Positions 26,411-60,112 of a stretch of 64,000 bases of DNA are shown here, piece after piece; within the stretch, counting starts at the first letter, position 1, and every line of letters begins with the position of its first letter. Source of the stretch: Liolophura sinensis (lineage: Eukaryota > Mollusca > Polyplacophora > Chitonida > Chitonidae). The stretch is taken from assembly GCF_032854445.1 (NCBI RefSeq), contig NC_088300.1, positions 70,096,984 to 70,160,983 of the forward strand. Direction: 5' to 3'. Below the pieces are notes generated by a model. The model did not search any database. It saw only the letters and a list, made by a program, of their open reading frames with translations, and was not told the DNA's origin. Both the position numbers and the translations under genes were made by a program.

Positions 26411-26459
26411 GGAAAATGAACCATCAACAAAGCAAGCACAATGGTTTTGGTTAGTCACC

Positions 26460-27149
26460 TCACACCTGGAAGATACATGTTATTAATAAATATATTATAA
26501 CTAATAATTAACCAAGGTCTCAAGTACGAGGCCACAATGCATAGCCTTTGGTTGTAATAATAAGGGGGACGGTACTTCGCATTACCAAGGAGTGTCTCAC
26601 CTCTAATGGTGATGAGTGTAGGGCATGGGTCATCTGACATCGTGTTGCCCAATTTCTTTAAAATGGTGTATCTCACGGCCTCTTAAGAATTCCAGATTAA
26701 AAATGCCAATGCCCCTTCAGGTCTGCACGGACCTCTCCTCTGAAGCAACTCTGGTTATGTTCCTTGTTGTCTTATAATGCCATAGTTTAGAATTTTTCAC
26801 TCGTATGACAGCTGTCGGGTTTATGGATGAAGGAAAACGGAATGGCCAGACTACACCACAGACTTTCGACAGGTACCTACTAGCATAGATGACTGTATGC
26901 CATCTTAATTTACAGTTGGATAATTTATGCATGTGGGTGGGGTGCATAACAGAATGGGTAGTTGGTGAATATATCCTGGTCTGTTTTAATGAAGTGAGAC
27001 GTTCTGGCTAGGCAATCACATACTGACACAGTAGGAAAAATAAAACATTGTTGTATCCTTGGCCAGGTCATTACTTGCATAGTCCAGTCATAGTCTGGTG
27101 TCTTATACATAGTATGAGACACCAAATGGCCCCAAAGATGGCCCCAAAG
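26460..27149. other. Non-coding flank upstream of FANCE exon 1
   Basis: No supported exon. At 27124-27160 there is a short tandem GATGGCCCCAAA repeat abutting the inverted-repeat element that follows. The FANCE promoter or a 5' non-coding exon may be here or further upstream, but nothing in the sequence fixes it. Confidence 0.4.
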
Positions 27150-27445
27150 ATGGCCCCAAGCCAACGTCAGAGCGCACTCTATTTAAAAAGCTGATGCAGT
27201 TACAGTGGAAATTTGTCATGAAGTTCGAGACAAAAATTACCCTTCAAATACGTCAAGGCCTTGTTCTTTACTTTTTTGTCTGTCAATTTATCACAAGCAC
27301 AACGGGATCGGCTATTTATTGATATTGGTCTTTGGTAATGCTGAAAGCCACCTGCTCTACTAACAGCCTCGGCATATTTGGCAAGAGCAGGTAACTGCAT
27401 CAGTTTTTGAAATGGAGCGCGCTCTGAGGTTGGTTTCGGGGTCAT
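27150..27445. mobile_element. 296-bp inverted-repeat element
   Basis: The two ends are inverted copies of about 55 bp. The left end has ATGGCCCCAAGCCAAC and TCAGAGCGCACTC, then GCTGATGCAGTTAC. The reverse complement of the right end has ATGACCCCGAAACCAAC and TCAGAGCGCGCTC, then CTGATGCAGTTAC. Identity is about 80% or more by eye. It contains an open frame of 81 codons on the minus strand that overlaps the right repeat; I do not recognise it. It is probably a MITE or an inverted duplication. Confidence 0.65.
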
Positions 27446-28180
27446 CCTTAATCGAACAAAATTTTTCCCACACCTACAAGTTAAAATGTCAGAGCAATCT
27501 CGGGTTATGTAGATGGAGAATTTTAAATCTGAGGATGTTATTGTGTGACAGAATGTAACTCTCAGTATCGACCATTACGAACAGAGAGTTACATACCGCA
27601 ACTGGTCAATTCATTGCTTGCTTTGTTGTTGTAGTTTACCGCCTGTGAGATCTGCTATCGCAACAGCAGTATTATGTATATCTGCATGAATCTGCTGAAG
27701 TGCCGCTGCATTATCACTTACTCACTGTTCACGTCCACGCTCTAATCAGATATGAGTGTGGAGGAGTAGGAGGTAAATGTTGATCATAACAATGCGATTC
27801 CTTTCGTTTTCGGGAAATGACAGGGTAACCATATAGTGAGCGCACAACAAAGGGAGCTAAATCTTCGAAGGGCAATGAAAACCAAAAAAGTGAAGGAAAC
27901 CACCATGTTATCTCCCATATGATGGAATCGCATCCCTGTTATAAAAGCGATGGGGAGAAGGATAAACCCATGTGCTTTAATAGTGGTTTTACCTGAAAAA
28001 CTTTTGTTTTAATTTACAAGTTTGTTTACTTTCTCTCTACCTAATCTGTTTTAAGATTAGATAGGCCTGCCCGTGAGCGCTAACTTTTCCCGGTAATTCC
28101 CCATATACATGTATATAGCATCAGGGCAGAACAAGAAAGGCGGTGGATTAACCATGTATGTTAGATATGATATTGTCTTG
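27446..28180. other. Non-coding intergenic stretch
   Basis: No supported gene. The sequence is AT-rich and single-copy as far as I can see. Confidence 0.4.
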
Positions 28181-36291: not shown

Positions 36292-36487
36292 ATGTTTAAG
36301 AGGACTCAGCCCGATGTGTATTCCGTGCAGTATTTAGTGGCACGGAAACAGGATTCCGGCATCGCCTCATCTCGGCAGAAAGTGTTGTGGCTGATTGTCG
36401 GTGCTTTGCTGCTGATTAGTATAGTGACTATCAGCATTGTATTGGGCGTTGTGTATGCTCGCTGGGAGGACCACGCATTGTTTGAGG
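36292..36487 (+). CDS. Exon 1: N-terminal tail and first membrane segment
   Basis: 65 codons plus 1 nt. About 30 residues with a net positive charge (RQK just before the membrane) precede a hydrophobic run from VLWLIVGALLL to VVYARW. It reads as a type II signal-anchor rather than a cleaved signal peptide. The ATG is the first in frame. The donor is GAGG|GTAAGT, and the intron that follows is 7.5 kb. Confidence 0.85.
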
Positions 36488-39400
36488 GTAAGTGTAGATT
36501 TCTTTACCTTCGTTTATCAGAATTGCTAACGCGTTGAAGCAGATTATAGAATGTCCCCAGGCGAGATAATTAAATGACTTACACAGGCAGCTTGAAAATT
36601 GTTTTGTTGGATTTGTCAATCCTTTACTCTATCAACGTCCAAATACAAAACCAATCATTGGATGAAAATAAATAAATCGTGTATTTGGCGTTAAAGTCCT
36701 TAAGAGTGTCAGGAAATACGGAACGGCTGCAGCTCTCTTACTTTTTTGTGCCGAGTTTTTCAAAATTGATCAAAAAATTTATGAACTAAAACCACCATAT
36801 GTTAAACGTGAGTCATGTTTTTTCAGTGCATGCGCACTGTGATAGCCATGTCATATTGGGAATATCTCCGTGTTATTTAACTTCAATAATCGATAAAATT
36901 TCATCCCGCTGAGGGTTTATGAACACTGATGCATTTGCAAAATCAGGGAGGAGTTTAAATAGTACGGTATCTAAACGAGATGTACATATGTGTGGCGTAT
37001 GACGCTTAAAGCAGATCGTGGTCATGAACAATCGAGATGTATTGAACACTCATAACTGCCTCGCCCCAATCTCACTCCCAATATGCCCGTGCGTGTGAGT
37101 GCTAACCATCCTGGATACATAGGTCTAACGTGACCATACAAATATCGACAGGTCATTGTTATCATTATCCAACAGCTGCATCGAGATCTGCCAAATAGAC
37201 ACGAAGCTAGATCACCACAAGAGGCCACAGTTGTCGTTAAGTCGATACCAGCATTTTGAAAGAATTGCTTTTACAATTACGCCTCCTATCGGGTTGAGAC
37301 GTAGGAGAGAAAAACGGACATAATTTTGTAAAAATAGATGAAATAATCCGAAACTCTGACTTGATCTGTGATTTGTCCTAAAGTGATTTACAAATTTTCG
37401 ATTCAGAATAACCAATTTGCAAGACTCGATGATGATCTGTAACTGGCCATGGTGAAGTCATTGCCAAGTTTCAGTTTCAATTTACTATGAACAAAGGTCG
37501 AACTGAACTGGCTGATAGTACATCAGCGGAATACCTTAGCGGGAAATGTTGGCACATCGGCCTACGGTTAAGGGATGTTATGTTAACTATGCAGAAATGT
37601 AATGTAAATATATTCCAATTAATTGCAAGGGTATTATATTAGGACTCTTTCACCCTGTTTTAACAGTGTATAAATAATATTAAATCATTCGGAAATGTAG
37701 TAGTGCTTTCAAGCACTTTCTCGGCAAAGATCCAGCAAGCACTCGCAAACAAAAGTGGTTGTCATAAACTATAAATATCATCATACCCGTTTGTTCAAAA
37801 AGTGGAACTTAGTGTATACCTTATTTCCTCTGCAAAACATATATTCTGCTTCTGTGACTGGCACATGTGTACTGCGCCCATGTATTTCGAGATAACCCAC
37901 TCAGGAAACCACTTATAGTTCAGTTCAAGAGGTCATTGTTAACGAGCATAATGTGCCCGAAACAACATCCGGATTTTTGACAATCCTTTACACAGTCGTT
38001 GTCTGGACGAATGTGTTATATAACACATTAAAACAAAGCGTTTTATCGATGTTAATCGTTATGTATTTGGGAGCACTTCAGCACTTGGCCTATTCACATC
38101 AAGACAGGAACTTGCAATTATTAAACTAGAATATTAAAATACAGATTATTAAACTGACAAAATGCTAAAACATGAAATGGAAAAGTGAAAATTAGGTATA
38201 AAATATTTTCTTTTTTAAAATACATTTTCAACAGGGTTAAGTGCCATCGAATGTTAGAATCATAGGCTATGGTCGGTTATATGAGCCATATAGCCGGTAT
38301 TTAAGTACTTCCCTGCTGCAAGAATTTTTTCCCGCTCTAAAAACAGGTTTTGCCACTGGAATAGCTCTTAGTATCAACGAGTAAACCGTTATTTATATAA
38401 TATTCTCGGAAATATCGCTTGTAAGCGAGAGAAAAAAGGTGTTATGACGCCAGAGTTCCCTCCACTGTCGGTACTATGGTTCATGAAACATACTTTGGAA
38501 TACAAACATTTAAATGCGTTAAAAGATGCATAAAAATCTAAATGAAAATATTTGTACGCAAAGTTTTTGAATGCATTTCATTATTTTTTGAGAAAAGGTA
38601 TTATTAAGTACTGTTTACAAAATTCTGTTTGTCGACGATTACTTCATTTTTGAGCTGTTTTGTCCTTTAAACTTTGGGTTGTATATATTTGATTGTCAAC
38701 GTTGATATATGTTGCATTTTATTTTAAAGCTTAAAATTGTCTTTTAAATAATGTTACAGTAATGTATTATTACATGTTTGACATTGAACAGCCGCTGGTT
38801 TGACCTGTGACCGATGATCGTCATCATGCAGTCAAACATCATAAATAATGTTACAGTAATGTATTATTACATGTTTGACATTGAACAGCCGCTGGTTTGA
38901 CCTGTGACCGATGATCGTCATCATGCAGTCAAACATCATAAATAATGTTACAGTAATGTATTATTACATGTTTGACATTGAACAGCCGCTGGTTTGACCT
39001 GTGACCGATGATCGTCATCATGCAGTCAAACATCATGCAGAAGTTTGTTCATTACATGGACCTCACCTAAAGAAAATAAAGAAAAACTGCCTTCATGGTA
39101 TAACAAAGATTAAATATAAACAGGAGACGGTGAGGATGGGGTGGGGCTGGGTAGGCTAACGAATTATCAGAAGATCTTTCGATGTCATAACCCATGCTTC
39201 AGACTACACCTATATACATCTACGTATACATAGAGCCTACTTGAATAAAATGTCGGACCTTTGAAATGATTTGTCGAAGGTATACTGGCATTACTTTAAC
39301 ATAGCAAAGGCTTTGTGGGTCAGTATTGCTAACTTTTTGTGGTCGACATAATACATTTGTCAGATAGTAAGTAGGATGATTATGCACACTGTGTTTAGAT

Positions 39401-42400: not shown

Positions 42401-45400
42401 GTAGGCTGGAAAAAGTATTCCCTCAAATCTATCTTAAATGTGTTCCAGGTAAGAAAGTTGGTTAAATCATATTAAATCATCATACCGTCTTACCTTCGCT
42501 CGACGATGGCACGAAACGATGTGACCACGGTACACAGTAATGCCACGATGGCACGGTGCATTATGGCTTCTATTTTTTCTTCAGGTGCTTGTACTTTGTC
42601 GTATTAAGGACTCATATGAAGCGGAACTGGAAATAAAATACCATAGTGAACCCATATTGTAACGGCGACATTGATGATATGATAATATGAAGCAATAGTA
42701 CAATTTTACAATCGATGACACCACATGACACGAAACGATAGTATGATCGCACGGACCGAGGGAACGAAGGCCTGAAGCAAGGGAACGATGACATGAAGCG
42801 ACGGTATGAAGGTACGAAAGGGATGGTCATCTCGCCATGGCTTCGTGCCATCGTCCCATTACTTCGCATCTTCATGTTATCTTCCCTTACTTTTTGTATA
42901 ATCGTACCATTGCTTCGTGCCTTTTTGAGGCTCTCGCCCGGTGAAACTACACTGAAACAATGGTACAATGATCGCCTGAACCGACTTCCACAGCCTATGG
43001 ACCTGTTATTTTAAGTGTATACCGTTAAATAAAATAGATAAATAATGTATTATTATTGAAGAAATCCCGTTCTTCTGTCCCGTGTTAATATATTAGCGCA
43101 CGTGTAGAATATGACGAATTTTATAAACATGTTAAGTTTAAAATTGAGAGTTTTTAAACTGGAAATAAAGAACAACAGTAACATTCAGGTACAGAGCTGC
43201 TCATCTCAGCTAAAAACTGAGGGATTGCAATTATTTGTAAAATTATACATTATTGTAAAAGTATATCCACGCCCGTATTATTGCATACTTACACACATTT
43301 AAAAACAACCCGGTCAAGTCCTAATACACGACTACCTTTGAGCGTTTCTACACAGATGACATGTAGATGTAACCACCATGAGAAAATGTACACGTAAATG
43401 AGTTGCTGCGTGGACTAATGATCGTATGACATTACTGAGAAGTGTTAGACACATTTTGGAAGCGAAACGATCAAAGACGTTATTCACGTCGAGTTAAATA
43501 CGCAAAGCGAGCAAATAAGTTATTGGGGTCAAGTAAAGTCGAGCAAATAAGTTATTCTGCTGGTCAAGTTAAAAACAAAAGAACCAAGCGAATTACTGAG
43601 GTAAAGGTAAATGCAGAAAGTGTGCTGCTGAGCTATTGAGGTCAAGTTAAAAACGCAAGCAATCGACTGAGTTGTTGAGAATAAGTTAAACACAAAATGA
43701 GCCCCTATCTTTCAAGTTAAATACGCAAAGCGTGAGTTCTTCAACCGAAGATAAATATGAAAAGCGAGCAAATGAGCTATCCTGCTCATCCAGCTACACG
43801 TAAATACCCAAAGCGTGCAACACAGTTATTGAGGTAAAGTTAAATTAGAACAAATTGTGTGGGATTTTGTGGGAATTAAAACAAATTTCATTTTCTGAGT
43901 AACTCAATGCGAGTAATAAGTTATATAAATATATAAAAAAAAATACTCATCCATTGTGCAACTTTACACACCAGGTATTCTAAATGCACTTGTGTTGTAA
44001 TTCTGGTGCCATTTTCGTTGCAGATAAACAAGAGGGCTCTTCGGAAGACGGTTATCCTGATGACACCCCGATAAAAGCGGCCCTTCAGCATGACGCTCTG
44101 CAGAAAGATAGGGTAAGAATGTCCAGCTTATTGTGATGAGTTCTAATGGCTTGACGGAGTGGTATTCAATACAACAGCACCTATACAAACAAGGCGTGCA
44201 TAATCCACGTCTCTAGTTTATACCAGTGCTTTAGAACTGTATATTCCAGGGTTATTGCGTTAGAAACCAAATGAAGTATTACGCCGACTCTTTTCTTTTT
44301 TTGACACAGCAAATGCAGTCCATCAACCCCACTGCTGTCAGTCCGTTTGCTCCTTCCCAAGATGATCAAGTACTAAAGCCCACTGATGTACACCTCCACC
44401 CGGTGATAACGCCAAAGAGAGTTTCGCTGGGACAATTCGAGAATGAAGTCGAGGAGGTCGATGTGTTGGAGATGACGATGTCTTTGCCAGCTTCAGTCGA
44501 TGTGACATCCCAGGAGTTTGAGCACGAGGTTGCCAAAGGTCAGGCGATATTTTTTATTATTCTACTTACTCACTGACAATATTTCAGAATGTTTCTTCAT
44601 GTTTACCTAAATGGCAGCTGGCCTTACCTAACAGTAAGTTTATTTGCTTCTCCATAAATCTACTCACGAAGATACCTTAGACGTAAGTCATACTTTGTCT
44701 GACCTTGTGCTATATCCCTGACCCTAGATGATAACTTAAACGTTCATTTTCAGTTTTGAAGTCAAAGGTAGGTCTCCATTTCAGCCCTGTAAACTGTTTC
44801 AAAATTAAGAGCAAAACGGAATTAACTGAAAGACAGATTCCTATGACCAGGTATGAAAGTATGAAAACAAATACAATACTTGAATCAGCCTTTCCTGGAT
44901 CAATACACCTTTCCGAACTGTTGACCAACTGACCAATCATATGCAGTATTGTTCCAAATAGGTCAACCGGATGTCCCACACATTGGTTACAAATGTTCAA
45001 TCTGTGTGTGACGTCATGACGTCACAATTGCTTTCCCCGAGAATGGAATGAAAGGCAAAGTTGTCACGAGAAGAGGGAGGCAGGGCATAGGATGTGTTTG
45101 ATCTATTCATTGTTATTGTAACTGCATGGGCAGTTAATATAATCATAAAATATGTTTCTACCTTAATTGTGAGGCAATGGTATCATCAGAACGGCCATAC
45201 TTTTCGATCTGATTTCTATTAGCAATGGAAATATATAGTTCTTCCTCAAGGCGAATTTCGTTTTCTCCGTTTTGTAGAATTTTCAAAGGCCAACCTATAT
45301 ACTGATAGACAATATATGCATTTTCTGTTTCACAGCTCTACGAAGAAGCTTCCAGACGGCCGAACAGCGTGACACAGAATCTCAGGCGAGACGTAAACGA

Positions 45401-48400
45401 GAAACCTTCGATCCTAGCTCTGTCACGGTCAACGTTAGTGTTTTATACTTGTTACGTTAAGAAAAATGTAAACGGCTTTTATGTTGTGTGTTGGGACTGA
45501 CAAAGGGTGGTTTAGATTCACAAAAATAGCGGATCAGTTTTTTTTCTGCCTAAAATAACCTGGATAACAGTAATTTTATAGTTGGCATGTAGCTATTGCT
45601 TTTCTGGTCTCTCCGTCCGTCTTTTCGCCAGACGTTTTCGTTTTTTTAAAATTTGTCCAGCTTATATCCTCGCTACTTTGCAAAACAGAATGCTGGAATT
45701 TCTCAACTGTGTAAAAGGTGTCTATAAGGGGAGCACGGTTATGTCGTTTTCTGTACTTTTTGCCTTAATTTCTCATGAAGGTATCTGCCCTTGGTCATGA
45801 TTTGCATGATTTTTACATAGCTTGCAGTTCAACATATATTCCAAGGAAGAACTCGCATTCAGTATACCACGTATTCGTTCTAGTTATTGCACGGTGCTGA
45901 TTAAAAACTAGAATCACCTTATACAGGTAAAACTAACCATATATTAGCCGGTATTACATTGAGTAGTTTTATCGTACAAATCATTACACTTATAATCGAT
46001 GGCAATGTCAATTTGATATTTATACAGAATCAACATTGGTACGTCTGTAGTATTTCTGTTAAGTACGAAGTATTCCCATTTCTTTTGGCCACGGATAAAT
46101 TTTCCCAGGGGGCTTGTTGATGTTCGACGGGAGAGGGGGCCCGCATGAGTTTGACTTGAACTCAGCGATCGCACTGATAAGAAACGCCTTGGTGATTGTG
46201 CTGCTAGAACGACACGGGAATCTGATTATTCGGAAATGGTATAGCATGATTTGCGCTTCCTAGGTTTTTTTCTTGATCTTTTTGCACAGATAACTAATAT
46301 AACAGCTTTAGATGATGGTACAGTGGTGGTCGACTTCTTCATCGTAGAGAATGGGAAAGTTGTGGGAACTGCAGTCGCTGTCCAAATCTTCAACCGACTG
46401 TCACTTCAAGAACTGGAGGACACTATCTTAGCCGAGGTATGCTCTTGGAATACCCAAGAAAATTTAATTACATACATATCTTTTTATTTTAAAACTGTTC
46501 ATTTGTCGACTTATAGAACAACCCACTGGTTGTAATCCACTGTACAGATATTAATTATATTGTTTGCTGTTGTTATCTCACATTAATGATGCTAAAGATG
46601 TTAACAAATGGTTCAAGATGCAGAACGTATAAGACAACCTGTGGCATTTTCAGTTATCAAATGTTGTCACGTATCAAATGTTATTTATGCTTTCGCTTTC
46701 AAATCTTGGTGCTGTTGTGGGCGTACATTATTGTTGCTGCGAACGGCCTGATTTTAAACCATCCAATCATTAGAATGAAACGGATACAGAAGAGACCTTG
46801 TGGGGTTATGTCCATTTGGTTGTCCTCTATTCATAACAGTAATGATGCACATGTGACATTCATTCTGAAAACGAGACTATATGGTAGACTATAACAATGG
46901 ATTATGTATTATTCTTTTGTGGCGAACGGACGCCATTGACAATGTAAATAGACAAGCACTTTCAATGCACAAAACATTGAACAGAACAATGTTGAAGCAG
47001 GCAGGAGACCAGGTTATGATATTGCACTATACTTTAATATTTTTACCCCACAGGTGTTTAGTCTCATTGCCGTGTCAGCCAGCAGCATTATTTTTGTGGG
47101 TAGAACAGAGCTACCATCTCTTAGCACTCTGATACTGGAGTCATCCTCAGTAAGCACAGAGCCAGTGGATTCCATGTTAACTTCGCTTGGCACAATAGAG
47201 ACCTCTTCCATTGTTCTTCCAATAAGTAGCCCGACGTCCGGGGAGATAACTCCCTCAGCAAGTTCCTTTCCAATTGATTCATCGTCTGTTGTAATCACCC
47301 CAAGTCCGGATACGATCTTGGGTGTTGAAATAAAAATGCCAGCAAATTACACCTCTGTCAATGATCCACTGTTGAAAAAATACCTCGAAAGCAGTAAGTA
47401 TGGCCGGTGGTATTTTAACGTTGTAATTTCATTCTTAAACTTTATGTGTGCCGATACCATTTCACACTACACCATAATACTTGGTACAAAGTAATCACTG
47501 CTTAAATGTAACTTTCTATAACGTCTGATATTGATAAATGCAATATTTTAGTTTTTAGAAATGGCATATAAATCCTTGTGGATTAGTAAATTTTTAATCC
47601 TTTTCTTCTGCAAGAACTTGCCCAGATGTACGTTACCGGCAAAACAAGGTTAGGAAATCGGAGGAAAAGGGCAACGGAAAATGTGGAGGTCAAGGTGAGA
47701 ATTGCCCATGTCACTGTTTTCATCATCCCTTATTTCATTATTCCTGGAAAATTACATTTACATCGGCTGTATAGTTTCCGTTACATTGTGTGAAGTCAGT
47801 GGCGTTTAGCATAACTGCACATTTAACCTCCAAAAGTTTACAAACCTTAAAAAAATCCTAACTTTTCACACAACTCCATAATAGTTCCCACGGACAATCG
47901 TGAATAAAGACTGAGAGGTTTTTTCCTCCTCTAGGTAACTGACATCAAGCAGACTGAATCTGGACTGGCCGTGGAGTTTTATGTATTAGAGGATGGTAAT
48001 GTTGTCCCTGCTGAGGCAGCCTCGGAAGTCTTTGCTGAAGTTGACGTTGAAGAACAGAATGCCATTTTTGAGGCCGAGGTATGACAAAAAAATATTTTTT
48101 GAATTTGAATTTGCTTTAAAATCTCTTTTTTTTCAAAGAGAAAAGCCCACACGTTCCCAACCCTTAAAGCTTTGAAATGGTCAGCTTTATGCAAGTTTCA
48201 TGCAGTACTCATTTACAACATGAATTTTCAGGTAATCGCTCCGGTGAGACCAATCCATACATCGTCTCCAAGTTTTCCTGTTGATGTAACAATGACGCCG
48301 AGCAATATCCAGTCCTCTCAAGTTTTACCTGATTCCAGCCTGGGAAGCCATGGTTCTAGCGCCACTGCTTCACTTGACAGCAGCATCCTCCAAACGTCTG

Positions 48401-51400
48401 GGGTTCTAACAGTGTCACCAGGGGACAGTACTCTGTCTGTTGTACCTGATTCTAGCCCGGGAAGCCGTGGTTCTAGCGTCACTGCTTCACTTGACAGCAG
48501 CATCCTCCAAACGTCTGGGGTTCTAACAGTGTCACCAGGGGACAGAACTCTGTCTGTTGTACCTGATTCTAGCCTGGGAAGCCATGGTTCTAGCGTCACT
48601 GCTTCACTTGACAGCAGCATACTCCAAACGTCTGGGGTTCTAACAGTGTCACCAGGGGACAGTACTCTGTCTGTTGTACCTGATTCTAGCCCGGGAAGCC
48701 ATGGTTCTAGCGTCATTGCTTCACTTGACAGCAGCATCCTCCAAACGTCTGGGGTTCTAACAGTGTCATCAGGGGACAGTACTCTGTCTGTTGTACCTGA
48801 TTCTAGCCCGGGAAGCCATGGTTCTAGCGTCATTGCTTCACTTGACAGCAGCATGCACCAAACGTCTGGGGTTCTAACAGTGTCATCAGGGGACATAACT
48901 CTGTCTGTTGTACCTGATTCTAGCCTGGGAAGCCATGGTTCTAGCGTCACTGCTTCACTTGACAGCAGCATCCTCCGAACGTCTGGGGTTCTACCAGTGT
49001 CATCAGGGGAAAGTACTCTGTCTGTTGTACCTGATTCTAGCCCGGGAAGCCATGGTTCTAGCGTCATTGCTTCACTTGACAGCAGCATCCTCCAAACGTC
49101 TGGGGTTCTAACAGTGTCACCAGGGGACAATACTCTGTCTGTTGTACCTGATTCTAGCCCGGGAAGCCATGGTTCTAGCGTCACTGCTTCACTTGACAGC
49201 AGCATACTCCAAACGTCTGGGGTTCCAACAGTGTCACCAGGGGACAATACTCTGTCTGTTGTACCTGATTCTAGCCCGGGAAGCCATGGTTCTAGCGTCA
49301 CTGCTTCACTTGACAGCAGCATACTCCAAACGTCTGGGGTTCTAACAGTGTCACCAGGGGACGGTACTCTGTCTGTTGTACCTGATTCTAGCCCGGGAAG
49401 CCATGGTTCTAGCGTCACTGCTTCACTTGACAGCAGCATCCTCCAAACGTCTGGGGTTCTAACAGTGTCACCAGGGGACAGTACTCTGTCTGTTGTACCT
49501 GATTCTAGCCCCGGAAGCCATGGTTCTAGCGTCACTGCTTCACTGGACAACAGCATCCTCCAAACGTCTGGGGTTCTAACAGTGTCACCAGGGGACAATA
49601 CTCTGTCTGTTGTACCTGATTCTAGCCCGGGAAGCCGTGGTTCTAGCGTCACTGCTTCACTTGACAGCAGCATCCTCCAAACGTCTGGGGTTCTAACAGT
49701 GTCACCAGGGGACAGTACTCTGTCTGTTGTACCTGATTCTAGCCCGGGAAGCCATGGTTCTAGCGTCACTGCTTCACTTGACAGCAGCATGCACCAAACA
49801 TCTGGGGTTCTACCAGTGTCATCAGGAGAGATCATCATTTCACCAAGTTCCCCAAGTTTATCTGTTCAATCGTCATCCGTTTTGGTGACGCCTAATGAGG
49901 ACCAGCTTGTTCGCATTGAAATAGGACTGCCAAGAAATTTCAGTTCTGCGGCAGATCCCGGGCTTTCGAGTTACCTACAAGAAAGTAAGTTTTATGTGTT
50001 AAATGATTGAATGGCTGCTAATGTTGATTTTTACTTTTTTTAAACCATTTTTCAAAAAAATTGCAAAGTGTCTTTTGCAATTTGCATTTTACATTTAGAA
50101 ATGGTTGTTTTTGCTCGCTGTCATTTTATGTCTGTAGAAGTAGCTTTTGGATAGTCAATGTGTTATTTTATCTTCTGAATACATGCGTCTTGTTCTCGAT
50201 GGATACAACTGCGCCATGAAACATACAACATGTCGACTACACACTAAAAGTCTTCCATCAATACATCCCCATTTATTTATTACTCAATGCTCGCTCTTCG
50301 TTTTACAAGAGCTAACCGAGATTTACAACACGGGCAAGGCAAGGTTGGGAAATCGCAGAAAAAGAGCAACGAGCAATGCTGAAGTTCAGGTATGAAATCC
50401 TCTTCAAATGATTTTCAAAAACCGTTGTCTAAACTTACACACTGATTCTATGAATATAACATATTTAACAATTCTGTGGTATCATTTTCAGTCAATATCC
50501 TTTTTAAAATAAGTTTGTTTACATGGTATTCGAAATGTTGGTAACACCACTTTACGTTTCGTAGGTAACTGACATCAAGGAACAACCATCTGGGGGATTG
50601 GCCGTGGAGTTTTATGTAGTAGAGGATGGCAAAGTTGTATCTGCTGAAACCGTCATAGCGGCTTTTGCTCAGCTTACCCCTCAAGAAAAAAATGACATTC
50701 TTGGAGCTGAGGTATGAATTTTGAAGTGACATGGTCGCTCAAAATTTTAATTTTTAAACAAATTCTGATTGCGACCTCTTAACGAAGGTTTAAAGTGCAT
50801 AAACTAAATCACTTACGTCGAAATAAGAATGCATTGAGTATATATCTTGAAAGACCGAGGAGACGCTCTGCCGTTATTCGAATTCAACACAAAGAGGTCG
50901 CGTCATTCTGCTTCATTAATAATGAACCGAAAGGGCCCAAAGAATATGCGCAGCGCTTGGACAGTTCCCTGTTCCTTGGACAGTTTTGAGTCAGAAATGT
51001 GTGTCTGTTTGAAATTTAAAACCCCCTGCCCACAACAATAACAACATTAGCACCAATCTATCAAGTAGTAGTTCAAATGTACTCCACCGTTCAAACTGAC
51101 CAGCAATTACAACTCTAGACTTGCTTGTCAACCTGTCGAGCTCTTTTTTACGCCTTTTTTGGCCGAACCTGTCACGAGCGAGCCGTACGTCCATCTTTTA
51201 CACGTGTAATCAGCTATGTTTTTTACATATGAAGTTTACAGAGCGCTGTGCGCTCCATTTCCACTGAATTGACAGCGCCTCATTTACATATTCTGGCAGA
51301 ATTTTCAGTCTTTAATTTTTTTCTTTTTTTTATACATTCTTTTAATGTACAATGTTGGGGGTGGGATTAACGAAAAGCTTGTAACTTCTACTTTTTGAGA

Positions 51401-54400
51401 AAAATACCCGATACTCATGTCATTCTGTAATACCCCAAAAATACCTAATATTTGGGCGACCATGTTGCTTTCATGAAAACTGTAAATTCGACTTTGAACA
51501 AAAGGATTACATTAAAATTGTAAACATTTCGTCCTTGTAAAGCTTACGTTACGTTCCTGTACACCTGTACAGGAAATCTGTGAACCAGGATACGAGTATA
51601 AGAATTAATGGTTCAACACTCAGTGTTGTGTAATTCAGTCATAGTTTCCATTCCGATGGGTACAAATTGTGCCCCCCTTTGGGCTAACCTATACCTGTTC
51701 TCGTTCAGAAAATAGGAAAATAGTAAAGAGTAATCCTTACTAAGTCGGATCTTTCTCAGTCACTCAACGGTATATTGATTATCTACTAATTTTGAACAAT
51801 CCATGTATAGCTAAGTTTGTGAAAGATATATATCCACCTTCGCTGGATTTAAAGGAAACCACAGGCTTTCCAGATAGTGCGTCTTATCTGGATCTATATT
51901 TGTTCAAGACTGAAACGGGTTCCTCTCTCCCAGACTTTACGTCAAGAGTTTCAGTTTTGACATTGTAAATTATCCTTACTTAGACAGCAATCTCTCGCTA
52001 CTGAATGCTAGCTCTTGCCTTGTAGCATGTTGGATACTGTGCGTAATTTGACGATTTCAATAACGTCATTATTACTGTTATTACTGCAAAAACTAGTGTG
52101 TTACGATTATTCCATCAAACACCTTCACTTTCTTAAGTTTTACAGTGGTAAATTCTCATTTGCGTAAATATGGACAGATCATGCTTCATGATTATATCTA
52201 ATTCCGCTTAAACCCGGGGCTAGGACAGTATATTCATAGAGTTGAATTAAATGGCCACGTTAGATATAACTTGCAATCAAAGCGCAACTGAGATACATAG
52301 TTTATTTATTTGATTGGTGTTTTACGCCGTACTCAGGCATATTTCACTTATACCAAGGCGGCCAGAATTATGATGGGAGGTAAGTGGACAAAGCCCGAGG
52401 GATATCCATGACTATCCGCAGGTTGCGGATGGGGGGGGGGGGGGGGGGCAGGAGATCCAGGCTCAATCCTGGGTCGGGTCACACGTAAGACTTTAGAAGA
52501 TGTTGTATCTTCCTCGCTTGACGTTCAGCGTTAAGGGTGTGGTGCAACGACTGGTTAACCCGTGTCAGTATAATGGCTTGGTTGAGGCAGCTTACTTGCC
52601 TTCAGTCAGGCGTCTCGGTGAAGCAAGACTAGATAAAAAGCGGTGGAAACCCGTCCTGCAACAAGGAGGCACATCACTGTCATGGAATACGATTTGAATA
52701 GTGATTTCAATCACTCGCCTAGAACATGCCTTCCAACATCAATGAAAACTTTTGGCTGATTCTCCTCATTTCGTACTTTATACGCTTTCTTAGTTCTGTG
52801 GTAGTTCTGTTAAACGTCGTTTTCGGAATTCACCTTACCATTATTGACCTGGAACGTCCAACTTGGTTGACGGCTGGTATACGAATGTCTATTTCGACGG
52901 ATAGATTTATATACTTTCCTAGTTCCTAGTTGGTTTGTTTTAAAAGTCGTTTTGGGAATTGGCCTTGCTATTATCGATCTGGAACTTCTACTTTGGTTGA
53001 TGGCTGACATACGAATGTCTCTTAGATCCATTATGTTGTAGTACATAGATCCATTATGTTGTAGTACATTTACCCATTATGTTGTAGTACATAGACCCAT
53101 TATGTTGTAGTATTCACAAATGACGTTAAAAGCAGCGCATCCTACTTGACCCTTGTCTGTGAATTGGCCAGTTTGTGAAAAATCATCACAGCCTCTTGTC
53201 TCGGTCTTTTTCTTAGATCCTGTCCTTACAAAGAAGTCATCTAAGCGGCTCCGCCACACCCGACAGTAGCGTCTCGCCAACATCTGTCGTTCTGTCGCCG
53301 TCGCCAGGGGAGATCACTCCATCGCTGTCTTCTCAACTGATGCCGTCCTCTTCTCAGATCCTTTACACCAGCGATGTCCCAGTCCAATCCGACAGCTACA
53401 GTTTAGCGTCGAGTCACAGAGTGCCTGTTCAGTCGTCGGCGTCACCTTCGATCGCCCCAACAAAACCATTGTCGTCTAGCTCCGTCGTGATGACATCATC
53501 AGCAACAACCCCGGTGCCCCCGGAATATAACCTCCTGAGAATCACCTTCAAGCTTAACGAATTTGAGGATGTTAGTAGTGAGGAATTCCGGAAAAGAATC
53601 GCTGAAGGTATAGAGCATTTCGGAAGATTCCGTTTTCAACAGTGATAATTTACGAAGGTTGTTTGTATAAGAGGTATTGTATTTGTATTCTTATGACTGC
53701 GTTTCATGTACATGTACAATGACTTACCCTTATTCTTCATATTAAAATACTTTAACATAGTATTTGTGCAGTACACTCATTAATTCTGTATCAGTCTGAA
53801 AACTGTGCTTTATATAAATATTTGGTGTTCATAAGAATTCATTCCTTGCATGTGTTTCTCTCTGTGACAAGCTTTGAGACAGGCTTATATTAAAGGACGC
53901 CAGAATCAACAGTCTCATGGAAGGCGAAAACGAGAGACAGCAGAAGTTGACAGCCCGCGCATTTTGGTAAGGCATCACTTGACATATTTATTCTACTACC
54001 TGTTAGATAAATACTTAGATAGCAAAACCAGAACAGAAACGAAAGTGTGAATCTTGGTGATTGGTCATATGTAACATGTAAAATCCGGCCTGGTGTCAAT
54101 TTACCAGAGTTAGGGTAATTACATTTCATGGAATGTCTAATATTACTCAGAATGCTGTGTGGTTATTTCATTTAATAAACAATCAGATGAAAACAATGCA
54201 AAGGGACCAGGCTTCGGGGAGGCTTTGTTCACCAGCAGAATCCTTGTTTTGCCCATGAAAAAAGTTACTATTTCCGCCAAAGGAGGTTATGTTATTGTCG
54301 TCTATCTGCATGTCTGTATGCCTGCATGTGTGTATGTCTGTATGTCCGTATGTCTGTCAGCAACTTATACACGGATTTGGATGAAATTTAGTGCACAAGA

Positions 54401-57400
54401 TCACCTTTGAATCAGGACCAATCCGTTAAATTTTGTTGATTTTGGTGAATCGGAATCAAGGATTTGTTTAAAATGATTCCTTAACATTGATCAAGAGGAA
54501 AGAAATGCAGATTATTGTCCTTTTGTTTGTGTTGCCATCGAGTGAATTTGTACAGTTTGCTTCTTGGCTACATTAGAATCCTGGTGCCTTTCACATTTTG
54601 GAGAACTAAGTATCAATAAAATCAGTCTTCTGGCAATCTTTTCAAAACTTCGATTTTGAGACTGGATCGAGCTTGCTTGTTGATTATTCTTTTTTACCCA
54701 TTGTGTAATAATGCTTGTTTTCATGTTTTTTCATATCTAAGATACATCGAATATTCAAAGAGGACAACAACGGTGTAGTTCACTTCCAAGTAGCAGATAT
54801 TGACTCTGCACTATCGGCCCAGGACATTTTGAATACCTTTGAAGCAGTGGGCTTTGAACAGCTTAAGGCAATGCTGTGCCTTGAGGTAAGAATCATACAA
54901 CCAACGAATGTAGCTGTTTGAGAATGCTCCTAAATATTTAATAAGATCAACTGGGGTCGATTTCACATAGCCGTCTCTGAAGTTAAAAGAAACTCTTTAC
55001 CATGCATACTTTTTGCTGAAAGCTGGATGCTGAAATTTGGACACATTTGTCTTAAGATAAAATTGATGAGTTGCACAAAATTTTAATTTCTAAAGCCTAC
55101 ATATAAGCTTGAGGATCATATTTTGACGTAAGCAAGAAATGGTTTGGTCGACTCGGTCCCTAGTTATCTCACCAAGTAAAATATTAAAATATTGTTTAAA
55201 CTGGTAATTGCAGCTGTGGAGAAGCTACACTAAACTAGTGAGAAATAATGTGACAAAAACACTTTGTGCAGCTAATGATATATGATATAGGATCATGTTG
55301 TAGAAAGTGTTTTTTGTCACAGTATTTCTGATTTGTTTAAACTGGTTTTCAAGATAGTCCGGTCTATGAACTTTGTTACCTTTGTTACACAAGTCGTATC
55401 TTACAAACTTCCATGATTACCTTGATATTCATGTGCTTATAATTTCTATTTTCAGTAGTTGCTACCCCCAGGTGTCAAATTAGTCTGTGAGGACGTAACT
55501 GTTTGCCGAACGGTGACGGCTCCTTCAACGCTGATCGCACCAGCTGTTGCGGCAACGTCATTACCACCTACTCTTTTATCACCTGTTCTTCTGTCTTCTT
55601 CAGCAGTTATGTCCACGGCAACACTAGCGTCTTTCACATGTTTTCTCTTTTCGTCACCCTTCTCGACATTGGGGACGACTCCATCTGCTGAACATCCAGC
55701 TTCTTCAGAGATGTTTAGATCGAGTTACCAAGTATTAACGAATTCACCAGTAATAATCTCATCTACGGTTCTTTCAGAGTCTGCAATAACCGAGACATCA
55801 TTTTTGTCAAGCACCTCTGTATTTATATCGTCCAGTTCTTTTGTTATAATGCCGTCTTCCGCATCTAAAGGTAGCGGTTCTAGCACATTCGATGCATCGC
55901 CGGCCACCTCACAGCCTTCATATTCCACATCCAGTATTTATCCCATTTATAGTTCACTGAGTTCTACCGCAAGATACACAAGCCTTCCTGAAAGTGACTT
56001 TTCGGAAACAATTCCTAGTACTGGAAACCCAAGCTTGTCCTATGCTTCCCTGTCAACGTCTCTAGAATCTTCGGTCTTGGCCAGCAGTTCCGAAGCCCCG
56101 AGACCGACGACCATCTTCCCTTCCATTACCATTTCTGAAATATCTCTCAGCCCATCTACCGCGTTCTACACAGACTCTTTTATAACTGAGAGTTTCCAAA
56201 CAACGAAAATAATTAGTTTAGGAACTGCCCACAGTATTATCACGTTTTTACCGACAATTGTCGATTCCAGTTCTTTTCCGAGCAGTATTGTGATCAAGTC
56301 CACTGATTTCTCGGGCACAGTTTCGTCCACATTTTTTTCATCGAGGGATACCGTGTCTGCATCGTCAGAATCAATGTTTACCATACCATTCCTTGATACG
56401 ACTTCAGTTAAGAGCACCAGTGGTTCAGTAACGGATTTTCCGGTAACATCTTCTCTTTTACCAAGAACCACATCTTACTTGACGTCTACGTCCTTATGGC
56501 TACAAACTAGTACCGTGTCACCGAAACCGACGATGGATTTGCCGTCTTCTTTCCTTATTACCACGACAACGTCGGTAATGACACCAACAGTATCAATAAT
56601 GCCATCACCATCAGCCGGCACGCCAATAACACCAACAATGTCAGTAATGACAGCGTCATCTTTGACATCTGTGGAATCTACAACGTTAGTGGAGTCAACA
56701 CCATCAACTGTAACGCCAGTTACACTAACTACATTGATATTACCAACATCATCAACTGTGACACCTGTGACGTCAACAACTTTACCATTACCAACGTCAA
56801 CTGTGACGCCCGTAACACTTGCTCCAACATCTGCGCCACCAACAAGCCATTCTCTGTCAAGGTTAACTATCCAGGTGAAAACAGTGGTGAATGTTAACTC
56901 TGAACTGTTCAAGGCTTTTATTCAGCCTGGTGAGTTGATTACCTTCATTGTGATGTCTCACTGACACATTTTCAGTAAAACGCTGTTTATTTTTGTTGTA
57001 TTTCTCCGTGTCAGATACGTGTGGTATGCATTTCACAGTTCGTTCATATGTTTTTTAGGGCTGGAAAAGTGTTACGTAGAGGCCCTCTTTTTCGGACAAA
57101 TACGTCGTAAAAGGAGGGAAGTATTTGGAACCGCCAACGACAATTACACATTGATAGCACAGGTAAGAATATGCCATAGATTGTAGGCTATACTTGTGTA
57201 TGACTCGATATTAATCGATATTTTCAGATCTGCCATAGTGTTGCTCTGCAGTATGTCGTTCTACCATAGTGTTGCTCTGCAGTATGTCGTTGATTCGCCA
57301 AAACAGTTTAGTTCTCAGACTGAGGATAAAAAATAGAACCTTACCTATGGAGCCTATTATTTAGAAAGCCCCGGTTTCTTCCCACCACAATGTTGGCCGC

Positions 57401-60112
57401 AGTCGTGTTAGTGAAATATGATTGAGTACGGCCTAAAACACCAGTCAAATGAATAAATAAATGAATCAATGTCCTATCGCACGTAGAACTAAAAGAACCA
57501 ATGAATTGTTTACTCATGCTTGTGATAGGTAACGGACGTCAATCGCGAACCTGAATCTCCCAGGAAAGTTCATGTGGATTTTTATGTAACGGTCGACGGG
57601 GAGGAACTGTCAGCAGAACAAGTGAGCAGTACACTGAACAGGCTGACACCAGCTGAACTGAGCGCCATCACACGTTACCCAGTGAGTATTCACATTCACC
57701 ATGGGCATAGGCAGCATGCACCAGTCTTTATTGAGCATTTAATGGTATTATTCACTCACTTGTATGCCCAGGAGGTTAAGGGTTTGGTTTTATAAATGTC
57801 CCATTTGGCTAAACGCTTGGTGCTAAATTCTGAGTATCTAAGCAAAACTTCATTAATCTTTGGAGGACTACATACTCTTTCTAGTTACCTCCTTTCAGAA
57901 TATAACTTTTGCTGATATATTTGTTAAGAAAACAAACTTAACCGGTTAAATCAGTTCAGGAGATTGTTTCTGCTTCTGGAAACATTTTACATTGGGATCA
58001 TTGTAAATTTCGCTCAGATATTCCTTTAATAGTCTGTAATAAAAAACTGGGAGTCAAACAACATGCAGCTCAGATCGAAAATAACAATGAACGATCGCAG
58101 CTGTTTTCTATACTTTTTCCTTAGAAGAACCGTCATCATTCTAAACAGATTCAGTCGTCCTTACTCTACAGGCTCGAATCCAGTTCTCGCAATTCGGGTT
58201 TGGTTTTAAGTCAGTAGAATTGTCAGGTAGCTGGCGGCGGTCGATGGTTTGTTCTGTCCACTCCGGGTTTCTCCACCCTTACACCTGGCCGCACATGAAT
58301 AAGTGAAAGATACCTGACTAAGAACGATTTAAAAAATAATTAAATGTTTTAATTCTATATATGAAATCAAGATCATGTTATTGTTCATAAATGTACTGTA
58401 TACAACGAATAACGGCGTTACGCGACGCAAACTCGGCATAACTGTGAATGCGCAAATTCTGTGTAATATATCAGAAGAACCGACATTTAAAGTACATGTA
58501 TTTTCCATTGTAAGGTTTTGGAACCAGTGCGCCCCGTGACAGCGGATACCGTCCCATCCACTGATGAGGAACCTAACAACGACCTGGGGGTGATCTTAGC
58601 CATAGTCATCCCATCTGTTCTGGTTATTATCGTCATTATTCTTTTTTTGGTGTGGTACTGCAGGAACAACGAGATCCGCACGGGGACCAGCTTGGCTAAG
58701 GTAGGCTACAGTCTGTTTCCCTTATCTACATTCAGCTCAGTGTAAAACCATTCATCCTTACTACCCAGATTGCCTCTCTTTAGTTACACGTAACACCACA
58801 AGCTCTACATGCTGATATGTGGTACACCCATATTTTAACAAAGAAATTGCAGTTTAAAATGTTTTTTCTAATTCATAATGTTAAACTGGATAAGCGTATT
58901 TTCGAGTCGAAGACTTTATTGCCGCAGGCGAGGTCATAATTGTTCCAAAACAAGTGAGATAATGGAGTCCTGTATGTTTTGACGGAGGGGTACACTTGTT
59001 TTCTTATGATCGACTTTACTTCAAGCCCAGTTTCTGACACTGCCATGTGTGAAATTGTTTTCAAGTGTTGATACAATATAACCTTAACAGATGACTTTTC
59101 TATGTTCTAATCTCCACAGATTACTCCACAAAGCTTGTTGCGTTATGTGTCACTATCTAAACGCAATTTTGGTGGTGAGCATGAGTGATTTTACAGAAAG
59201 CTGAAAATAGGTGAAAAATTAAGAACAAAACAGACTGTAATAAAAACCAAAACGTGACAGAACTTGCCTCAAGGGTGTACATCTGTTTTACAAAATGCAG
59301 AGGTTTAATCTTGTTAAATGTTCATGGTATTGTGGTGCACAAAAATGCAAAGAATGAAAAACGCAGTGTATACACCGTAGCTGACCAAAGGTAGTTACCT
59401 GAGTGTTTTAAAAGGCTTCCGGTGGCGAGTTTACTTTTTACGATGGTATTTCGAGCTGTGTGTTGAGGCGATATATTTGCAACATTGATAAACCATTGTT
59501 TAGACATCATGGGCTACATTCTCATCAAAGTTTTCCATTTTACCATAGTGGCATGTGATTTCGGGTTTACATAGCCAATATTCCAAGCAAAATATCCAAA
59601 CCGATTTTTATTTATCGCTGTCTTGTTGAAATGCGCATTACCGGTACTCAGGTCTCAATCTGCAACTGGTAATATATGCACCAGGAGGACAGATATTCCT
59701 GCCACAGTCATACCAGAATGTTATTTGCAACATGCCATGCTGTGCATCGCAGAAATGTTTAACACTGTAACGTTGTGCGTACAGTTTCAACCTCTAGCTC
59801 TTATGGCCATCGTCTGTGTACATTAGCAATGTGAATGGTTGGTTGTCGTTTCCGACAGGATCCCGAGACTCTGGGGCACCACAATCTGGATGTAGACATA
59901 GAGAGAGGCGACATTGTGAAGAAGTCTATGACCTGGAAATCCACGTCAAGCGGCAGTCTTACGTTGAAGAAAAAGTCAACCCCATTAGCCATCGAGGTGG
60001 AAGAGCCGATTGAATCAACGCCTCATAGGGCACTCCAAGGCTCAGTTCCCCCTTTGTCACGATCCACTTCTTTTGAGCCTTATTTTCCCAACCCAGAGTC
60101 AAAAGACAGAAG
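36292..60112 (+). CDS. Five-module SEA-like transmembrane protein, KIAA1549/UPF0606-like
   Basis: Nineteen exons, all with AG/GT borders and matching phases: 36292-36487, 44024-44112, 44310-44538, 45336-45433, 46290-46436, 47054-47393, 47615-47694, 47935-48078, 48232-49984, 50310-50389, 50565-50711, 53217-53607, 53872-53966, 54742-54885, 55459-56929, 57059-57162, 57529-57681, 58515-58700, 59859-60112; 2033 codons. Order: cytoplasmic tail, membrane segment (about 31-55), five three-exon SEA-like modules separated by Ser/Thr-rich stretches, membrane segment (about 1911-1935), cytoplasmic tail. Every module has RRKR in its middle exon. By recall, module 5 through the second membrane segment resembles human KIAA1549L (RR..RRA, then VV.VV.V, FVED.DGE.LSA, IAQPV, N-LWVIVGVVIP). 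The family's molecular role is poorly defined; I infer a large glycosylated, proprotein-convertase-processed surface protein. The 3' end is uncertain: AGAAG|GTAAGG looks like a donor, but reading through gives TAA at 60114-60116. Family assignment is less sure than the gene structure. Confidence 0.75.
38748..39038. repeat. Three perfect 97-bp tandem repeats with hairpin potential
   Basis: ATAATGTTACAGTAATG starts at 38748, 38845 and 38942; the copies appear identical. Within each copy ATGTTTGAC is later followed by its complement GTCAAACAT, and GATGATCGTCATC is nearly self-complementary, so each unit can form a stem. Located in the 7.5-kb first intron. Confidence 0.95.
40700..41240. repeat. 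Probable dispersed repeat with ACTTCCGG motifs
   Basis: Three close copies of (A)CTTCCGGTTTTGA-like sequence (40793-40850), then text such as TTTCAGCTCAATCGCATCA and AAAATCCAATATGGCCGTCC, typical of dispersed invertebrate repeats. There is no coding sense. Confidence 0.35.
42500..42930. repeat. Fold-back of degenerate ACGATG/GAAGC repeats
   Basis: Short degenerate units (ACGATGGCACGAA, GAAGCAAGGGAACGATG and similar) are repeated on one strand up to about 42830 and on the other strand after it. Arms 42774-42804 and 42835-42865 are complementary at about 24 of 31 positions. The overlapping open frames with repeated RSNGT are products of this repetition. Confidence 0.7.
43460..43850. repeat. 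Degenerate minisatellite, about 40-50-bp unit
   Basis: Units of the type GTCAAGTTAAATACGCAAAG followed by CGAGCAAATAAGTTATT(GAG) recur about eight or nine times with heavy divergence and variable length, just upstream of exon 2. Confidence 0.75.
44024..44112 (+). CDS. Exon 2: acidic juxtamembrane segment
   Basis: Residues 66-95 (DKQEGSSEDGYPDDTPIKAA…). The acceptor is TTCGTTGCAG and the donor AGG|GTAAGA. Phase 1 in, phase 0 out. No recognised domain. Confidence 0.8.
44310..46436 (+). CDS. SEA-like module 1 (exons 3-5)
   Basis: Exons 44310-44538, 45336-45433 and 46290-46436. β1-like MTMSLPASVDVTSQEF and a helix are followed by the basic site QARRKRET (RRKR at about 45389-45400), then VNITNITALDDGTVVVDFFI as the central strands and a C-terminal helix (LSLQELEDTILAE). 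At the position where autoproteolytic SEA domains have Gly-Ser-Val-Val-Val this copy has Gly-Thr-Val-Val-Val. An N-glycosylation sequon NIT is present. Exon phases are 0-1, 1-0, 0-0. Confidence 0.8.
46085..46205 (-). mobile_element. Degenerate SINE head fragment
   Basis: On the minus strand CGATCGCTGAGTTCAAGTCAAACTCATGC matches, as two adjoining parts, the B-box region of the family (GTCGCTGTGGGTTCAAGTCC…AGCTCATG). The rest is lost. It lies just upstream of exon 5. Confidence 0.5.
47054..48078 (+). CDS. SEA-like module 2 (exons 6-8)
   Basis: Exons 47054-47393, 47615-47694 and 47935-48078. A Ser-rich lead is followed by GVEIKMPANYTSVND, then the middle exon with GNRRKRATENVEV, then VTDIKQTESGLAVEFYVLED and a helix ending IFEAE. 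The Gly-Ser cleavage motif is absent (Gly-Leu-Ala-Val-Glu). NYT is a sequon. The middle and last exons are close paralogues of those in module 3, the most recent-looking duplication of the series. Confidence 0.85.
48232..50711 (+). CDS. SEA-like module 3 with 13 mucin-like tandem repeats (exons 9-11)
   Basis: Exons 48232-49984, 50310-50389 and 50565-50711. Exon 9 (584 codons) is mostly 13 copies of a 39-residue repeat (for example VPDSSPGSHGSSVTASLDSS, then ILQTSGVLTVSPG), about one third Ser/Thr, a likely O-glycosylated stalk. After the repeats IEIGLPRNFSSAADPG begins the SEA-like fold. Exon 10 has GNRRKRATSNAEV and exon 11 VTDIKEQPSGGLAVEFYVVE and a helix ending ILGAE. Confidence 0.85.
48329..49840 (+). 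repeat. 117-bp coding tandem repeat, about 13 copies
   Basis: The unit is 117 bp = 39 codons. Marker GATTC(T/C)AGCC(C/T)GGGAAGCC recurs every 117 bp from 48329. Copies differ at only a few bases, so the array is young or homogenised by gene conversion or unequal exchange, and copy number is probably polymorphic. Because the unit is a multiple of three, other frames (including a 506-codon antisense frame) are also open; those are shadows. Confidence 0.95.
51757..52200 (+). pseudogene. Decayed reverse-transcriptase fragment in an intron
   Basis: Reading in broken frames gives QRYIDYLLILNNP, then FVKDIYPPSLDLKETTG, SASYLDLYL, and after a frameshift SFSFDIVNYPYLDSNL. This is the order of an RT-like family common in invertebrate genomes (YIDDLL…YP.EL.LKETT…SYLDL…F.IVNFPYL.SNIP). 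The catalytic YIDD is degraded to YIDY. It sits in the intron between exons 11 and 12 and is inactive. Confidence 0.65.
52304..52440 (-). mobile_element. SINE copy (minus strand)
   Basis: Minus-strand order: diverged 5' body, CATAATTCTGGCCGCC, AAGTGAAATATGCC, TACGGCGTAAAACACCAATC, AAATAAATAAA. On the + strand it ends against a run of about 18 G at 52431-52448. Confidence 0.8.
52800..53112. repeat. Diverged 95-bp duplication followed by four 23-bp repeats
   Basis: 52803-52893 and 52930-53022 are diverged copies (GTCGTTTT(C/G)GGAATT, ATTA(T/C)(T/C)G(A)(C/T)CTGGAAC, ACGAATGTCT). From 53023 the 23-bp unit TAGATCCATTATGTTGTAGTACA is repeated four times with point changes. Located about 100 bp upstream of exon 12. 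Confidence 0.8.
53217..54885 (+). CDS. SEA-like module 4 (exons 12-14)
   Basis: Exons 53217-53607, 53872-53966 and 54742-54885. A Ser-rich lead of about 100 residues is followed by LLRITFKLNEFEDVSSEEF, then the middle exon with HGRRKRETAEV, then IFKEDNNGVVHFQVADIDSA and a helix ending AMLCLE. This is the most diverged copy: VTDI is replaced by IHRI and the central strand is shorter. Confidence 0.8.
54262..54500 (+). repeat. Dispersed repeat with GGAGGTTATGTT motif
   Basis: The stretch beginning CCGCCAAAGGAGGTTATG, passing through a (TGTCTGTA)n-like tract and GGATTTGGATGAAATTTAGTG, resembles a repeat I recall from many animal genomes. It lies in an intron and no coding sense is seen. Confidence 0.45.
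55459..57681 (+). CDS. SEA-like module 5 with giant mucin-like exon (exons 15-17)
   Basis: Exons 55459-56929 (490 codons), 57059-57162 and 57529-57681. Exon 15 is a non-repetitive Ser/Thr/Pro-rich domain, ending in short (V)TPVTxTT repeats, then LTIQVKTVVNVNSELFKAFI. Exon 16 carries GQIRRKRREVFGTANDNYTL (sequon NYT). Exon 17 has VTDVNREPE…KVHVDFYVTVDGEELSAEQV. The acceptor of exon 15 must be the TAG of TTTCAGTAG: using the upstream CAG would put a stop first. This module is the one closest to the single module I recall in vertebrate KIAA1549-type proteins. Confidence 0.8.
57230..57294. repeat. 31-bp tandem duplication
   Basis: CCATAGTGTTGCTCTGCAGT plus ATGTCGTT occurs twice, about 31 bp apart, in the intron between exons 16 and 17. 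Confidence 0.85.
57365..57466 (+). mobile_element. SINE 3' fragment
   Basis: It carries CCCCGGTTTCTTCCCACC, then a diverged AATGTTGGCCGCAGTCGTG, GTGAAATATGATTGAGTACG and (A)AATAAATAAATGAAT. The head is missing. Lies in the intron before exon 17. Confidence 0.8.
58240..58345 (+). mobile_element. Strongly diverged SINE 3' fragment
   Basis: It keeps the order of the family (CGGGTTTCTCCACCC, GGCCGCACATGAATAAGTGAAAGA, GACTAAGAACG, A-rich tail) with many changes. It lies in the intron before the second membrane exon. Confidence 0.5.
58515..58700 (+). CDS. Exon 18: stalk end and second membrane segment
   Basis: 62 codons, phase 0 on both sides. VLEPVRPVTADT and an acidic spacer (TDEEPNND) are followed by a strongly hydrophobic run (LGVILAIVIPSVLVIIVIIL…VWYC) and then RNNEIR. 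The IVIP start of the membrane segment is like KIAA1549L as I recall it. The donor is AAG|GTAGGC. Confidence 0.9.
59859..60112 (+). CDS. Exon 19: cytoplasmic tail, possibly the last exon
   Basis: 84 codons plus 2 nt. Basic and Ser-rich (KKSMTWKSTSSGSLTLKKKS, then PPLSRSTSFEPYFPNP). The acceptor is TTCCGACAG. It either splices at AGAAG|GTAAGG or reads two codons into a stop at 60114-60116, giving a protein of 2034 residues. AATAAA sites downstream (for example 61063) would suit a terminal exon, but vertebrate relatives have much longer tails. Confidence 0.75.

Follow-up and report, generated by a model that had tools for sequence, protein, structure and literature searches.

A five-module member of the KIAA1549 family in the chiton Liolophura sinensis

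Organization of the gene

The window, the whole stretch of 64,000 nucleotides that we analyzed (C6:70096984-70160983 of the 609-Mb genome of Liolophura sinensis), contains a real gene, an unusual five-module representative of a known family. Between positions 36292 and 60112, 19 exons, chosen by eye at GT/AG sites, join into 2033 codons without a single stop (Table 1). The original prediction of five three-exon cassettes with identical intron phases holds in all five cases, the 15 cassette exons repeating the phases 0-1, 1-0, and 0-0, and so does the predicted order within the cassettes, with RRKR in the middle exon and the V-x-F strand in the last exon of each of the five modules. The predicted exon span also stands, except for the end of the gene at 60112. 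The phase at the 3′ end of exon 19 is 2, and 14-15 kb downstream, we read by eye two exons that fit it, the first with phases 2-0 and the second in phase 0, so that the gene extends past the window. The longer plus-strand frames of the 40 kb downstream were inspected, and the 3′ end of the gene lies beyond the exons read so far. The join of exons 1 and 2, which spans a 7.5-kb intron, was made from phase 1 and the splice consensus alone.

Table 1. Features of the five-module gene (positions in the window)
Feature	Position	Strand	Details
Exon 1: start codon, short basic N-terminus, first hydrophobic segment	36292..36487	+	Hydropathy up to 2.8 over 19 residues
Exon 2	44024..44112	+	Phase 1-0
Cassette 1 (exons 3-5)	44310..46436: 44310-44538, 45336-45433, 46290-46436	+	RRKR 45389-45400
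Cassette 2 (exons 6-8)	47054..48078: 47054-47393, 47615-47694, 47935-48078	+	RRKR 47659-47670
Cassette 3 (exons 9-11)	48232..50711: 48232-49984, 50310-50389, 50565-50711	+	RRKR 50354-50365
117-base (39-residue) tandem repeat, in-frame, Ser/Thr-rich	48322..49826	+	12.9 copies, inside exon 9
Cassette 4 (exons 12-14)	53217..54885: 53217-53607, 53872-53966, 54742-54885	+	RRKR 53922-53933
CAGTAG tandem acceptor	55453..55458	+	First AG leads to in-frame TAG after module 4; second AG leads in frame into cassette 5
Cassette 5 (exons 15-17)	55459..57681: 55459-56929, 57059-57162, 57529-57681	+	RRKR 57103-57114
Exon 18: juxtamembrane stalk and C-terminal membrane segment	58515..58700	+	Hydropathy; PF12877 match
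Exon 19: start of cytoplasmic tail	59859..60112	+	Phase 0-2

Two introns contain repeats. In intron 1 (38745-39036), a 97-base unit is repeated head to tail in three identical copies, a duplication that is probably recent given their identity. Intron 11 harbors an interspersed repeat (about 52290-52690) that we take to resemble a tRNA-derived SINE common in molluscs and their relatives; similar translated pieces are found at 1946-2260, in the region of the second gene described below, and in one further stretch. Elsewhere in the window, a satellite array with about 422 copies of a 38-base unit occupies 16 kb (2671-18647), and minus-strand open frames at 20121-27574 resemble the exons of another gene. 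One of the four frames scanned (20121-20423) weakly matched FANCE, the Fanconi anemia protein (E 0.0031, 17.5 bits vs 22.2).

Ser/Thr-rich linkers and hydrophobic segments

The mucin character that had been predicted is evident in the four linkers, which consist of 39-43% Ser plus Thr and 7-15% Pro. The linker between modules 2 and 3 includes the 39-residue repeat, and exon 15 encodes a second long Ser/Thr-rich stretch. On the minus strand, a 515-codon open frame (48318-49865) is antisense to the exon 9 repeat and is most simply a by-product of the 117-base unit, which is stop-free in that frame.

Hydropathy analysis identified strong hydrophobic segments at both ends of the protein (within residues 27-59 and 1907-1941), consistent with the two membrane segments of the original prediction, and a third, weaker stretch not listed there (within residues 248-269, encoded by 46419-46436 and 47054-47101) directly after module 1. 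The first segment probably serves as a signal anchor that leaves the N-terminus on the inside, considering the basic residues before it (net charge +4) and the acidic ones after it (net -10 over the following 89 residues); alternatively, it may be a long, cleaved signal peptide. Residues 248-269 may form the last strand of module 1; if they cross the membrane, the topology changes.

Relationships among the modules

Homology links the five modules with one another and with the module found in a second KIAA1549 gene of the same genome. The five modules of the original prediction are borne out by leave-one-out profile searches, in which modules 1 to 5 scored 75.5, 96.5, 97.1, 44.6, and 53.4 bits, respectively, and the module of the second gene scored 36.6 bits, compared with 11.2 bits for the best shuffle (none of the 1000 shuffles per module reached the real score), with the qualification that the scores may be somewhat raised, the row left out having been part of the alignment that supplied the columns. 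After masking of RRKR, the scores were 59.2, 79.5, 80.1, 29.5, and 43.8 bits for modules 1 to 5 and 27.0 bits for the second gene. No sixth module was found in the protein, the six-module profile recovering only its five members. Modules 2 and 3 are 53.6% identical, and the other 14 of the 15 pairs show 14.8-29.1% identity. In the six-module tree, modules 2 and 3 group together (81/87, below the starred level), and the other branches are too long for use.

Membership in the KIAA1549 family and a second family gene

The predicted kinship with KIAA1549/DUF3827 (PF12877; curated Pfam cut-off, 24 bits) was supported by the match of module 5 together with the membrane segment, at 45.7 bits (4.2e-12, profile positions 163-290). 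Module 2 alone scored just above the cut-off (24.1 bits, 1.5e-5), and the consensus of the six modules also exceeded it (26.2 bits); module 1 reached 13.5 bits (profile 19-105), and modules 3 and 4 alone gave no PF12877 match. None of these matches extends past position 290, so that the cytoplasmic region of the profile (approximately 290-676) is unmatched by the tail as read, and the two downstream tail exons had no match in Pfam.

An exon-by-exon search of the genome with PF12877, a weak method, yielded no match at E<=0.001 and three at E<=10: exon 18 of the window gene (profile 245-290, E 0.12) and two at C6:27.717-27.729 Mb (E 0.003 and 0.23). The latter belong to a second KIAA1549 gene on the minus strand of the same contig, 42 Mb from the window gene (C6:27710001-27740000), which encodes a long Ser/Thr-rich ectodomain, a module with RRRRKR, a membrane segment, and a long tail. 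Its module with the membrane segment matched PF12877 at 6.5e-22, and with a roughly joined tail, the score was 80.3 bits over two stretches; the only genome match to profile positions 644-674, among three candidates scored, is at this gene. In the 30 kb examined (open frames longer than 40 residues), the second gene has one module, in agreement with the single module ascribed to the family in the original prediction.

The two genes share the place of one intron: in all six modules, alignment column 78 marks the phase 0 start of the exon that follows the one with RRKR. The intron before the predecessor of that exon lies about 20 residues apart in the two genes, and the phase of the next intron is 0 in the window gene and 1 in the second gene. 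Considering the family match and the shared intron place, the window gene is most likely paralogous to this more typical member of the KIAA1549 family. A BLAST search with the joined modules 2, 4, and 5 plus the tail yielded 15 matches, of which 13 fell in the window gene and the other two, both weak, outside it (E 1.5 and 2.8), and module 2 alone yielded five, all within the window gene. As the second gene escaped both searches, this genome may contain further divergent copies. Frames downstream of the window compared with those of the second gene showed chance-level similarity only, among the matches listed.

Several other assignments were considered and rejected. The module 1 match suggested two modules inside PF12877, but a doubled module 1 gave no PF12877 match, and the single module of the second gene also speaks against this arrangement. 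Below their cut-offs were OAM_dimer on module 1 (17 bits vs 25), TMEM154 on the membrane segment (22.6 vs 30.3, with Psg1 and Amnionless weaker there), Crystall_2 on the module of the second gene (21.5 vs 25), and PdaC on the module consensus (19.3 vs 29.1); PdaC and OAM_dimer rose above their cut-offs with doubled sequences only, which we took as a doubling artifact. The search against NCBIfam returned one chance match (E 0.2, 10.5 bits vs 300).

Possible relation to SEA domains

The SEA similarity of the modules that had been predicted was not recovered. None of the six modules matched PF01390 (SEA) at E<=10, a search in which the HMMER filters drop most matches above 0.1 and the SEA domain of MUC1, the positive control, scored 5.2e-14. 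Six hhalign comparisons of the modules with true SEA sets gave 0.1-5.6%, compared with 76% for MUC1 against a MUC16/TMPRSS set and 96% for a TMPRSS-type sequence against mucins. SEA homology was also rejected after an hhalign comparison of all six modules with five SEA sequences (14.15, with 7 of 200 column shuffles higher); the five window modules alone gave 15.19, a value without shuffles of its own. In pairwise alignments with MUC1, 11 to 196 of 300 shuffles were as high, depending on the module, compared with none of 300 for either of two SEA controls. A profile search against solved structures found five chance-level matches, none of them to SEA, and with module 5 alone no match. The SEA genes of this genome, with three partial matches and none above the cut-off, were not used as a reference.

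Nevertheless, the modules could be true SEA domains of a divergent branch, a reading compatible with the model proposed below and one of which we are a little more doubtful than convinced. The order of elements discerned by eye (strand, helix, [RRKR], strand, strand, helix, strand) fits that of SEA, and GTVVV, present in module 1 only, resembles the MUC1 cleavage motif GSVVV and meets it in one alignment register. Neither this register nor the other one (5.6%), which brings the RRKR region to the MUC1 cleavage loop, is significant, and a looser motif of the GTVVV type is expected by chance 0.46 times per shuffled protein. The profile results above also count against this reading. The designation “SEA-like,” derived from the by-eye order of strands and helices only, is unproven.

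The exon 15 acceptor and possible splice forms

Entry into cassette 5 depends on a tandem acceptor, CAGTAG, whose second AG is the sole YAG entry found that keeps the frame after exon 14. In a matrix built from 19 acceptor sites of the same gene, one of them (75112) placed two bases off, the score of the first AG was 9.56 and that of the second 2.77. The 18 acceptors with correct placement all scored 4.39 or more, although training on these same sites favors them. LLPPGVK, encoded immediately downstream of the second AG, can be aligned with VIAPVRP and VLEPVRP, which open the corresponding exons behind modules 2 and 5, so that the frame-keeping junction is probably the original state. Both splice forms may be made.

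The strength of the first AG speaks for a rival reading in which the locus encodes two products, namely an N-anchored four-module protein ending at the TAG and a second protein starting inside exon 15 and consisting of module 5, the membrane segment, and the tail. An ATG in exon 15 that is followed by a short hydrophobic stretch would suit such a start; however, no basic residue precedes the hydrophobic part, the only Pfam match of this stretch is at chance level (DUF599, E 5.5), exon 15 is open over its full length in the frame of the second AG, and the LLPPGVK alignment makes the in-frame junction look ancestral. We consider two products unlikely.

Furin-type sites and sequence constraint

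The R-X-[KR]-R pattern occurs at five places (six overlapping matches) in the 2033 residues, once per module, whereas shuffled proteins contained 0.10 matches on average and two at most (5000 shuffles). It occupies alignment columns 59-62 in all six modules, as RRKR in five and as RKRR in module 5, where RRKR is shifted by one column toward the N-terminus. The site is kept although 14 of the 15 module pairs are only 15-29% identical. RRKR might instead be a conserved surface patch or a retention signal that remains uncut, given that the case for cleavage comes from sequence, but such a role is very unlikely considering the persistence of the site in every module while the remainder drifts and its absence from the rest of the protein.

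Purifying selection has preserved the protein sequence of modules 2 and 3, as judged from dN of 0.33 against dS of 0.88 (NG86; 0.32 and 1.02 with YN00). Although the odd CAGTAG acceptor and the near-perfect tandem array within exon 9 might point to a decaying or mis-assembled duplicate gene, this explanation is hardly credible with no stops across nineteen exons and dN/dS of about 0.3-0.4 between modules 2 and 3.

A proposed surface break-point model

Judging from its sequence features, the product is most likely a mucin-like surface protein that is furin-cut in each module. More specifically, we give somewhat more credence than doubt to a model in which this KIAA1549 paralog is a giant membrane glycoprotein whose membrane-proximal module, present five-fold, provides break points at the cell surface. 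The protein would be located at the surface with both ends cytoplasmic, and its Ser/Thr-rich linkers would be heavily O-glycosylated, perhaps O-mannosylated by POMT1/2 as in human KIAA1549. Furin-type proteases of the Golgi would cut every module, the halves of each cut module would stay joined non-covalently, as in cleaved SEA domains, and pulling or shear would then set parts of the coat free at several break points. The non-covalent holding is proposed by analogy only, as there is no sequence link to SEA.

The break-point model as a whole, which is wholly inferred, draws on precedents for POMT substrates, GPR126, and proteolytic switches. Human KIAA1549 is reported to be among the few substrates of POMT1/POMT2 and to be modified in unstructured, mucin-like regions (PMC11292533); GPR126 carries a furin site within its SEA domain, whose halves remain joined after the cut (PMC6954182); and receptors with furin-cut SEA-like domains can be proteolytic switches (PMC6586460). 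Exons of the PMT family are present at two places in this genome (four matches), and perhaps POMT acts on the window paralog as well. Against the model stand the unmatched cytoplasmic part of PF12877 and the lack of PF12877 matches for modules 3 and 4 alone, the low score of module 1 (13.5 bits), the need for a weaker acceptor into cassette 5, and the third hydrophobic stretch, which complicates the topology.

A more elaborate version would be a cell-surface mucin held in the membrane at two ends, with five furin-cut links, that opens or is shed in up to six sections, the three-base choice at CAGTAG deciding between it and a short, four-module, N-anchored form; we regard this combination as quite unlikely.

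Comparison with known systems

KIAA1549 is known from a brain-tumor gene fusion and from retinal disease, and to our knowledge, there is no established mechanism for its ectodomain. Among the open-licence PubMed Central papers as listed, none on a multi-module KIAA1549 was found, which is weak evidence of absence. The window gene resembles KIAA1549/KIAA1549L (UPF0606) in the profile match and the Ser/Thr-rich ectodomain and is unmatched to the family profile beyond position 290. It differs from its relative in the same genome, with which it shares the module intron place, in having five modules rather than the one found there, and perhaps in its N-terminal hydrophobic segment. The five drifting copies of the module show which residues are kept, above all the furin-type site, and make the notion of the KIAA1549 module as a furin-cut, force-sensitive link directly testable, the human protein included.

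Notch and GPR126 each contain one furin-cut SEA-like domain. Like the window modules, they carry a furin-type site in a small extracellular domain (PMC6954182, PMC6586460). Their site lies between the second and third strands, whereas that of the window gene, as placed by eye, precedes the second; one weak alignment (5.6%) instead places it at the SEA cleavage loop.

Dystroglycan has a single cleavage domain, which is SEA-like and cleaved and adjoins the membrane. It is mucin-like and O-mannosylated by POMT1/2 (PMC11292533). We compared this family via Pfam only, and it is absent from the Pfam matches of the stretches scanned.

In MUC16 (CA125), a heavily glycosylated membrane mucin with about 56 predicted SEA domains (PMC4456727), modules are likewise repeated many times in tandem. 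The modules of MUC16, a type I protein, are named SEA domains, whereas those of the window gene, without SEA similarity, each carry a furin-type site.
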